Shown: positions 8,931 to 12,089 of the stretch, one piece after another
Position numbering within the stretch: position 1 is the stretch's first letter
How the letters are laid out: every line of letters starts with the position of its first letter
From: Tannerella sp.
Lineage (GTDB): Bacteria > Bacteroidota > Bacteroidia > Bacteroidales > Tannerellaceae
Direction of reading: 5' to 3'
Length of the DNA stretch: 35,673 nucleotides
Assembly (NCBI GenBank): GCA_031257565.1
Contig: JAIROL010000269.1
Location: forward strand, 1-35,673
Notes under the pieces: model-generated
What the model was told of the DNA's origin: nothing
The model's input: only the letters and a program-made list of their open reading frames with translations
The model's database searches: none
Translations under genes and position numbers: made by a program

Positions 8931-9299
8931 ATGAAAATAGCAGTTTTCGGATCAAGGGAGATCAATAAAAAGAAAGTATACGACATTCTTTGCGATAAAA
9001 TGAGCGCGGAACATGAATATATAACGAGCGGTAATATTGATGGGGCTGCCAAGATGGCGGTTACCGTCGCAAAAGAGAAAGGTATAAAAATTACGTTGTA
9101 CAATTATGAATCCGGACTTGGATTTTATTTGGCTCTAAAAGACATAATGAGCAAAAACAAAAAGATGATAGCCGCGTGCGATTCTGCGCTTGTTTTCTGG
9201 AATGGAGAAAGCAAGGGAACCGAAAGAGAAATAAATATGCTTGACAAACAAGGTAAGCCGTACGAATTGATAATTTGCGAAAAACGGAGGATATTTTAA
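8931..9299 (+). CDS. SLOG-superfamily (YpsA/YspA-like) Rossmann protein
   Basis: MKIAVFGSREINKKKVYDIL ... YITSGNIDGAAKMA ... ALVFWNGESKGTEREI. The ORF-track start at 8802 is an upstream GTG extension. Confidence 0.65.
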   Translation: MKIAVFGSREINKKKVYDILCDKMSAEHEYITSGNIDGAAKMAVTVAKEKGIKITLYNYESGLGFYLALKDIMSKNKKMIAACDSALVFWNGESKGTEREINMLDKQGKPYELIICEKRRIF

Positions 9300-9301
9300 T
9301 C

Positions 9302-10228
9302 GTGATTAATACTGAAAAAATAAAAACAACGCTGAGAAAGGCGGAAAAGCTCGCAGACATTTACGGCTGCAAGTTAAATTTGGGTTTTTCCGGCGGCAAG
9401 GATAGTGTAGCGCTGAAATACTTTGCCGACTATTACGGCATTGAGTATGTAGCCAATTTCAACAATACTCAAATTGAGCAGTACAGGGAAATGATCGGGT
9501 TTATAAAGAAAAACTATCCGGATGTAAATATCATTCATCCGGACAAGGAAAACAGTTTCTTTGAGCTAATGAAGCGCAAGGGGATTCCGTCTCTGTTTCG
9601 CCGCTGGTGTTGCAACAGCCTAAAGCACTCCAATCCCAAGCTCTCGGAATACCGGGTAAACCTTATTGGCGTAAGAGGAGAGGAAAGCGCCGCCCGCATG
9701 AGGCGCGGCGCAATTTCGGTATTCGGCAGATCTGATAGAGCGAAAAAAACGCAGGAAAAGCTGCGTGCCACATTTGCTTCCGCCGGCAGCGAGGTTAGAT
9801 GCGAGGGCGGCAAAGATAAAGTCAATATCTATCCTGTTTTTGACTTGAAGGAAAGAAACGTATGGGATATTATAAGAACTGAAAGACTTGTGATCCCGGA
9901 TGTTTATTATTCGGGCGTAAAGAGGCTGGGATGCGCCTTTTGCCCCTTTGCTTCATATAAACAGAACCTTGAAACAATAAAATACCGCCCTCAAATAGCG
10001 AGAGCGTGGCTTAAGGTTCTTTCCGACGAGGAATTTCAATCGCGGCAAAAGAATGTTGTCGGAAGAACGAACGGTGCAGGCCTGTTTTATCTCTATATTA
10101 AAGGTTCCTTTCTGACAAACGAGTCGTTTTATAAAGGATTGAGGTACCTGTCGCAAAAAGACCTGAATGGAAAAACAGGCTTACAGGTTTTTGAAGAATA
10201 CTTAAAGGAAAACAATGTATGCAGATAG
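9302..10228 (+). CDS. PP-loop ATPase, PAPS-reductase/DndC-like
   Basis: LNLGFSGGKDSVALKYFAD PP-loop; RRWCCNSLK and RLGCAFCPF cysteine motifs. ORF open from 9275; GTG at 9302 also possible. Confidence 0.75.
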   Translation: MINTEKIKTTLRKAEKLADIYGCKLNLGFSGGKDSVALKYFADYYGIEYVANFNNTQIEQYREMIGFIKKNYPDVNIIHPDKENSFFELMKRKGIPSLFRRWCCNSLKHSNPKLSEYRVNLIGVRGEESAARMRRGAISVFGRSDRAKKTQEKLRATFASAGSEVRCEGGKDKVNIYPVFDLKERNVWDIIRTERLVIPDVYYSGVKRLGCAFCPFASYKQNLETIKYRPQIARAWLKVLSDEEFQSRQKNVVGRTNGAGLFYLYIKGSFLTNESFYKGLRYLSQKDLNGKTGLQVFEEYLKENNVCR

Positions 10229-11256
10229 TTGACTTATTCAGTGGTATGGGAGGCTTTAGTCTTGCGGGGAAATGGGTTGGATGGGATACCGTCCAGTTCG
10301 TTGAGATAAATCCTTTTTGTCGTAGAATCTTGGAGTACCATTTCCGGGATGTACCCGTTTTTGAAGATGTTAAAAAATTTAGCATAGATGAACTCAAAAA
10401 GTCAAAATGGAATCCGTCTGAAAACACGATTGTCTGCGGCGGATTCCCCTGCCAGCCATTCAGCAACGCGGGAAGAAGAAAAGGAGCGGCAGACGACCGC
10501 CACCTCTGGCCGGAAGTTATCCGGCTTGTGCGAGAGATCAAGCCCGCTTGGTTTATTGGCGAGAATGTTGCTGGAATCACCTCTATGGTACAGCCCGGCA
10601 GCGAAGTTGAGGTGGCAAGCGGTAAAACTCTGTTCGGAGAGGATTATAAGGAGACGGTATCACGGGAGCGGTACATCATCGATACCATCCGTAAAGACCT
10701 TAAACAGGCAGGATATAAAGTCTGGCCATTTATTATTCCGGCTTGTGCCGTCGGCGCGCCGCACCGACGGGACAGAATCTGGATCGTTGGGTACAACAAA
10801 AACTTCAACAGGACAGGAAAAACTGTTGCCCACCGTGCAGACGCAGGGCATGAAAGTGTGTCGGAATGGGAAAACGGAGTTTATGAACCTCCGACTGTTG
10901 CCGACGCCAATGGCGAGCGACCGTCAGGACGGGGTTCACGTATCGAAAAAGTCGCCGAAACTTCAAGGTGCGCCGAAACTGGCAGACTTGGCTACATCGG
11001 AACTTCTTCCCACGCCAACGGCGTCCAACGCCGACAAAATGACAAAGGCAAGCAATCAGGACAATCTGAACAAGACATTCCAAACTGGCAAAGATTCCCA
11101 ACTCAATCCCCTATTTGTAGAAAGTATGATGGGTTATCCTCCGAACTGGTTGGTATCACCTTTTCTGCGTGGAGACGACAAGCCATCGAAGCGCTCGGAA
11201 ACTCCATAGTGCCGCATGTGGCGCATAAATTCTTTAAAATAATAGACAATATATAA
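10219..11256 (+). CDS. C5-cytosine DNA methyltransferase
   Basis: MQIVDLFSGMGGFSLAG, GGFPCQPFSNAGRRKG, WFIGENVAG, GAPHRRDRIWIVG, ALGNSIVPHVA. Confidence 0.92.
   Translation: MQIVDLFSGMGGFSLAGKWVGWDTVQFVEINPFCRRILEYHFRDVPVFEDVKKFSIDELKKSKWNPSENTIVCGGFPCQPFSNAGRRKGAADDRHLWPEVIRLVREIKPAWFIGENVAGITSMVQPGSEVEVASGKTLFGEDYKETVSRERYIIDTIRKDLKQAGYKVWPFIIPACAVGAPHRRDRIWIVGYNKNFNRTGKTVAHRADAGHESVSEWENGVYEPPTVADANGERPSGRGSRIEKVAETSRCAETGRLGYIGTSSHANGVQRRQNDKGKQSGQSEQDIPNWQRFPTQSPICRKYDGLSSELVGITFSAWRRQAIEALGNSIVPHVAHKFFKIIDNI
10388..11209 (+). CDS. Overlapping +1-frame ORF within the cytosine MTase gene, with phage MTase-associated LPTP/NPxFVExMMGYP motifs
   Basis: 273-aa open frame containing GHLLFRLVPSARRTDGTESG, LLPTVQTQGMKVC, LLPTPMASD, LLPTPTASNAD, LNPLFVESMMGYPPNWLVSPF, KRSETP. 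Confidence 0.6.
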   Translation: MNSKSQNGIRLKTRLSAADSPASHSATREEEKERQTTATSGRKLSGLCERSSPLGLLARMLLESPLWYSPAAKLRWQAVKLCSERIIRRRYHGSGTSSIPSVKTLNRQDIKSGHLLFRLVPSARRTDGTESGSLGTTKTSTGQEKLLPTVQTQGMKVCRNGKTEFMNLRLLPTPMASDRQDGVHVSKKSPKLQGAPKLADLATSELLPTPTASNADKMTKASNQDNLNKTFQTGKDSQLNPLFVESMMGYPPNWLVSPFLRGDDKPSKRSETP

Positions 11257-12089
11257 TGAAAATTATCAGGATATTTCCCAGACAAACAAACGCCACGCCT
11301 GACGACGCCGACGTGCGTATTAACGCCGTTCCGTCGTTATTCGATGACGATGATGCGGATGAGGTGCATATCTCCGTAACGTTCACGTGGGATCTGGCGC
11401 GCGCAGATTATCTGGCGCGCGCATGGCGACCGGTTGCCCCCGTTCGCGTTGGCGGTCCCGCGTACAATGAGCCGGGCGGCAACTTTGCTCCGGGAATGTA
11501 CATGAAACGCGGATACGTCATCACTTCGCGCGGCTGTCCGAATCGCTGCTTTTTCTGCAATGTTCCGAAGCGCGAGGGCTACCGGCTGCGGGAACTGCCG
11601 GTAACTAACGGCTGGATTGTTACCGACGACAACCTACTCGCCTGCTCGCAGGAACACATTGACAAGGTCTTTGCAATGCTTCGCCGGCAGCCGCACCGCC
11701 CGCGATTTGTTGGCGGACTTGAGGCAAAGCTGATGACGGCAGATATGGCGTTGCGCCTGAAAGATTTAAATCCGGTAACCATGTTCTTTGCCTACGACAC
11801 GCCGGACGATTATGAGCCGCTTGTCGAGGCCGGTAAATATCTCCGCGCTGCCGGATTCAAGAAAAGCAACCAGCAGGCGCGCTGTTATGTACTTATAGGA
11901 TATAAGGGAGACGCGTTTGAAAAAGCGGAAAAAAGGCTGAAGCAAACGTGGGACGCCGGTTTTTTTCCATTTGCAATGTTATACCGCGGCCATGACGGCC
12001 TGTATGACCGCGACTGGAAGCGTTTCCAGCGCGAGTGGGCAAACCCCGTTATTACGGGGAGCAAACTGAAACAATATGAAACAATATGA
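11256..12089 (+). CDS. Radical SAM protein
   Basis: YVITSRGCPNRCFFCNVPKREG (CxxxCxxC cluster motif). Confidence 0.8.
   Translation: MKIIRIFPRQTNATPDDADVRINAVPSLFDDDDADEVHISVTFTWDLARADYLARAWRPVAPVRVGGPAYNEPGGNFAPGMYMKRGYVITSRGCPNRCFFCNVPKREGYRLRELPVTNGWIVTDDNLLACSQEHIDKVFAMLRRQPHRPRFVGGLEAKLMTADMALRLKDLNPVTMFFAYDTPDDYEPLVEAGKYLRAAGFKKSNQQARCYVLIGYKGDAFEKAEKRLKQTWDAGFFPFAMLYRGHDGLYDRDWKRFQREWANPVITGSKLKQYETI

Follow-up and report, generated by a model that had tools for sequence, protein, structure and literature searches.

A reading frame nested in a phage C5-cytosine methyltransferase gene probably encodes the motif IX subunit of a two-part enzyme

Results

Layout of the locus

The window, i.e. 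the whole stretch of 35,673 nucleotides from Tannerella sp. that was analysed, is a prophage or phage genome, with terminase, portal, major head and tape measure proteins encoded downstream. Gene A (alpha; 10219..11256, + strand, ATG 10219, TAA 11256) encodes a protein of 345 residues with the large domain of a C5-cytosine methyltransferase. Gene B (beta; 10388..11209, + strand, ATG 10388, TAG 11209) is nested in A at +1 and encodes 273 residues; a TAG triplet stands immediately 5' of its ATG. Both frames had been reported in an initial annotation, the coordinates of which were correct on re-reading, and all the motifs it quoted were found in the translations of the window. Immediately 5' of A, a PAPS-reductase-family protein is encoded at 9275-10228, and such a protein is also found close to the A/B pair in two Bacteroides phages. 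The protein of the window has PADLOC hits to BrxP (E 3e-16) and to SspD (E 3e-9), and may therefore act in DNA modification or counter-defence. The gene following A (11256-12089) encodes a Radical-SAM-like protein (phrog_9298), and its start sits on the stop codon of A (TAATG).

The A protein matches PF00145 over residues 1-234 (E 8e-39) as well as phrog_363. C5-methyltransferase motifs I to VIII and X are present, among them those by which PF00145 members are recognised, namely I, IV (PCQ), VI (ENV), VIII and X. Motif IV with the catalytic Cys (GGFPCQPFS) is located at 10438..10464, motif VIII (GAPHRRDRIWIVG) at 10753..10791 and motif X (ALGNSIVPHVA) at 11191..11223, all on the + strand. The stretch between VIII and X (10792..11139, + strand, about residues 192-307) is a poorly conserved linker, predicted to be disordered, that replaces the small domain. 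Nothing resembling a motif IX was seen in the motifs or the model of A. This structure model is confident for residues 1-201 and for the C-terminal helices, shows disorder at 202-307 and has no small domain; its catalytic domain matches M.HhaI (E 3e-12).

The likely start codon of B (ATG, 10388..10390), directly after the TAG, has an A/T-rich upstream region. No clear Shine-Dalgarno sequence or strong ribosome-binding site was seen at this start in the window, and the start codons of B differ from locus to locus. Along B, on the + strand, a GHLLFRLVPSARRTDGTESG block (10724..10783) is followed by three LLPT segments, LLPTVQ (10823..10840), LLPTPM (10895..10912) and LLPTPT (11003..11020), and then by motif IX, LNPLFVESMMGYPPNW (11102..11149), in the conserved C-terminal part of the protein. 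Among phage families, B matches phrog_1008 (E 1.4e-20), which is labelled 'DNA methyltransferase'; comparison with Pfam and NCBIfam models gave zero matches, and a profile search against PDB sequences returned nothing relevant. Aligned with hhalign to motif IX of M.HhaI (RKLHPRECARVMGYPDSYKVHP), the B profile gave 36% identity (E 7.7e-4) over a short match of 22 columns with a probability of 25%. An AlphaFold model of B alone, with 70 relatives in the alignment, was of low confidence (pLDDT 62), and a PDB fold search with it found no match; both are uninformative rather than negative, as a small-domain subunit by itself may be unable to fold. The N-terminal half of B overlaps the conserved motifs IV-VIII of A and partly echoes them.

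Frame B is open beyond chance

The synonymous codons of A were redrawn in 50,000 trials, keeping its protein and codon usage fixed. The shuffled genes had on average 6.6 stops across the B span, and B was open in only 1 of the 50,000. At 159 non-redundant loci found via B there were 0 stops in B versus 1031 expected, and the third frame of these loci was nearly normal (2884 stops versus 3064 expected). As these first loci had been found via B or via the MMGxPxxW pattern, which entails an ascertainment bias, a second sample was drawn by the N-terminal motifs of A alone. B was open in the identical +1 frame in 80 out of 80, a proportion valid for the nearest relatives of A that make up this sample and not for all C5-methyltransferases. 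A more distant phage relative (L274) gave a weak B match of 71 residues only.

Motif IX was found in the +1 frame of 298 loci in total, and the offset of B relative to A is +1 in every nested case. B is nested at this offset in phages of Bacteroides, Porphyromonas, Paenibacillus and Lacticaseibacillus, in E. coli prophages, and in genomes and viral contigs across many phyla. Judged by these comparisons, frame B is a real, conserved gene.

Selection on the overlap

Rates of change were compared in 48 independent pairs of relatives with 60-97% A identity, part of them from the A-sampled loci. Third positions of A codons changed least where they coincide with the last 25 codons of B (0.16 per site), more along motifs IV-VIII (0.25) and most outside the overlap (0.36-0.40). 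Expressed against the A-only flanks (0.377), the value at the end of B (0.159) corresponds to a ratio of 0.42 [0.34-0.52], and synonymous change at identical A residues in this region is 0.47 [0.39-0.56] of the flank value. The synonymous change of A is thus about halved under the last 25 codons of B, which bears out the constraint that the initial annotation had proposed to look for. In the 16 pairs in which all landmarks could be placed, the constraint sets in at the start of the B ORF (0.230 versus 0.352), and after B the value is back to 0.334.

The same picture emerges within the motif IX block, where the three codon positions of B carry 1.50, 1.41 and 0.74 bits. Third positions of A, which are second positions of B, are almost as fixed as second positions of A, whereas first positions of A, which are third positions of B, vary; B and not A is therefore the conserved frame in this block. 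The rate comparison is the cleaner evidence, because the search pattern required some letters of the block.

Natural variants

In several relatives the motifs of B are arranged differently. The LLPTP segments and the MMGxPxxW block lie between VIII and X, in the frame of A, in Mycobacterium phage Chevrolet gp76 and in several viral contigs, L286 and L310 among them. A and B of Porphyromonas somerae (L061) are adjacent without overlap, the ATG of B directly following the stop of A. There, A is complete with a short linker, and the free-standing B has two LLPTPTAS-type segments and LNPLYVEEMMGFPEGW but no longer the N-terminal block overlapping motif IV of A. A third arrangement, resembling M.AquI, occurs in Brevibacillus borstelensis (L100) and in L156, where A ends after VIII and the B frame has both IX and X. 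In actinophage-like contigs (L293, L296, L297, L300, L302-L307) A also ends after VIII, and an overlapping +1 ORF contains IX and apparently X; as in L100 and L156, the B frame extends past the short A. At two further loci (L316, L356) motif IX is in the frame of A (KLNADWVEWLMGFPVGWTE in L316) and a B-like ORF is still open in +1 upstream, possibly as the result of a recent fusion.

Other loci have interruptions in A. In Bacteroides elements and faecal phage contigs (L018, L022, L025, L038/L039, L041/L042, L046), A is interrupted by 2-4 TGA codons each, with no TAA or TAG, and B is open. Several of these TGA codons stand where relatives have Trp (LAAE*MGW, FSR*R), and second codon positions of A are the least changed, as if A were still under selection. 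The TGA codons may be read as Trp, be suppressed, or reflect early decay; no TGA-reading tRNA was present beside these loci in the sequence stretches examined. L018 also contains an intein-like insert (about 1490-2500) precisely before the catalytic Cys (GGFP^C), with two in-frame TGA, one of them in FLGDG*ILDG. At three viral loci, six extra bases separate FP from CQ in the catalytic motif (L131, TAACTA at 2554; L153, TAACTA at 2554; L172, TGACCA at 2515), introducing a stop in A and creating a stop-NN-ATG arrangement, B being open throughout.

Discussion

A probable two-subunit methyltransferase

A (alpha) and B (beta) are very probably the two chains of a single M.EcoHK31I-type heterodimeric C5-methyltransferase, with B produced by internal initiation. 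A would contribute the S-adenosylmethionine-binding and catalytic domain (I-VIII) with the closing helix X, and B the small domain, with the DNA-contacting LLPTP segments and motif IX. For the enzyme as a whole, motif IX, and probably the TRD as well, come from B and are absent from A; B is almost certainly the source of the portion missing from A, with motif IX and the DNA-recognition segments. The initial annotation, which had proposed two proteins in overlapping frames, overlooked that A is without a motif IX and that B provides one. The proposal of two proteins is upheld by the A-only sampling, the synonymous constraint, the side-by-side version and the fused single-chain relatives. The natural variants are stronger proof of the identity of B than the hhalign match to M.HhaI; together with the constraint data and the C-terminal half of B, they carry the case for B as a protein. 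B probably also sets the specificity, because the LLPTP segments occupy the place of the TRD of single-chain enzymes. Its translation would start at the ATG within A and proceed in the +1 frame; the two proteins would then bind each other and the pair would methylate DNA.

Could B instead be a non-coding echo, protein-like only through the conservation of A and mis-annotated as a methyltransferase? Public records do call B 'DNA methyltransferase', and the B profile, in its N-terminal half, also scores in the +1 frame of single-chain relatives, so that this explanation, which the initial annotation had itself raised as an objection, partly holds for that half. It fails for the C-terminal half, where B and not A is the conserved frame. 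The openness of B, the constraint on A's synonymous positions, the dominance of B in the IX block, the retention of the motifs by the non-overlapping B of L061, and the presence of the same motifs in the frame of A in fused enzymes all contradict an echo, which we regard as extremely improbable. Hardly more credible is an independent function for B, e.g. as an anti-restriction or regulatory protein, whose overlap with A would be incidental. The Bacteroides loci in which TGA codons cut an A that accompanies an open B, and the stop at the catalytic motif of A in three viral loci, would fit such a protein. Against this, A is without a motif IX of its own, the B segment corresponds to the position of IX in fused enzymes, and the pair is retained in all 80 A-sampled relatives.

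The route by which B is made also deserves consideration. A +1 ribosomal shift in A after motif VIII could yield an A-B fusion alongside plain A, and the invariable +1 offset and the single-chain fusions known among relatives are in line with this. However, the product would be without motif X, the constraint is visible already from the start of the B ORF, ahead of motif IV, an ATG stands at the very edge of the B ORF in the window, and B of L061 requires its own start. A shift of this kind is therefore unlikely. Internal initiation at 10388, preferred to a frameshift in the initial annotation, is favoured as the simplest route to B, because the constraint begins at the start of B and the side-by-side B of L061 has its own ATG.

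Origin of the overlap

The heterodimer most likely derives from a single-chain ancestor that underwent two compensating frameshifts, after motif VIII and before motif X, although the direction of evolution is our inference. These would have pushed the small domain into +1, where it then gained a start inside A, and the VIII-X stretch of A would have become an overprinted linker; two such frameshifts would give exactly the nested form. In a tree of 66 A cores, which is unrooted and gives no direction, nested forms fall in two deep groups with at least six changes of form, and nearly all the single-chain and AquI-like forms lie within one of these groups. We lean towards a wider view, in which a large and old group of phage C5-methyltransferases consists of reciprocal overprints that arose via paired frameshifts, A being ancestral in the first half and the small domain of B in the second. 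Nested, AquI-like, side-by-side and single-chain forms would have replaced one another within the group, B being a swappable hidden specificity subunit. The single-chain, side-by-side and nested forms constitute a testable series for the origin of a long same-strand overlap, and this series also bears on the exchange of DNA-recognition subunits.

Some annotators of Paenibacillus phages recorded an internal gene. Most public records have one gene, leave the overlap unannotated, or have two unexplained 'methyltransferases'. Among the methyltransferase genes of phages and prophages, many are probably annotated singly where two are needed, and cloning the annotated gene alone should then not succeed, or succeed only where the nested frame is co-expressed without being noticed.

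Comparison with known systems

We found no paper on overlapping frames in phage methyltransferases and no functional work on gp49/gp50 of Paenibacillus phage Diva; in a paper on 48 P. larvae phages no mention of the nested gene was found. Diva gp49/gp50 has the same nested +1 layout as the window, gp50 is annotated 'g49 internal gene', and its identity with B of the window is 32%. In Chevrolet gp76, the segments shared with the window between VIII and X are part of one chain, and there is no overlap.

M.EcoHK31I is a heterodimeric C5-methyltransferase with the target YGGCCR, the small subunit of which is encoded in an alternative frame within the large-subunit gene, as B is at +1 within A. M.AquI (CYCGRG) is likewise a C5-methyltransferase in two chains. 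This two-part M.EcoHK31I-type enzyme is a precedent and was already known. New here are the breadth (298 loci), the fused, side-by-side and AquI-like natural variants, and the proposed origin via two compensating frameshifts. In M.EcoHK31I, the larger subunit carries motifs I-VIII and X and the smaller one motif IX, and the TRD was assigned to the large subunit; in AquI, IX and X are together in the small subunit (PMC3404938). The window resembles M.EcoHK31I, compared here by description only, in having two polypeptides, a large one with I-VIII and X but without IX and a small one with IX. It differs from M.AquI in that X stays in A, the AquI-like split being found instead in L100, L156 and apparently in L293 and others. 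It may differ from M.EcoHK31I in the location of the TRD, as the VIII-X stretch of A is unconserved and predicted to be disordered here and the conserved LLPTP segments are in B.
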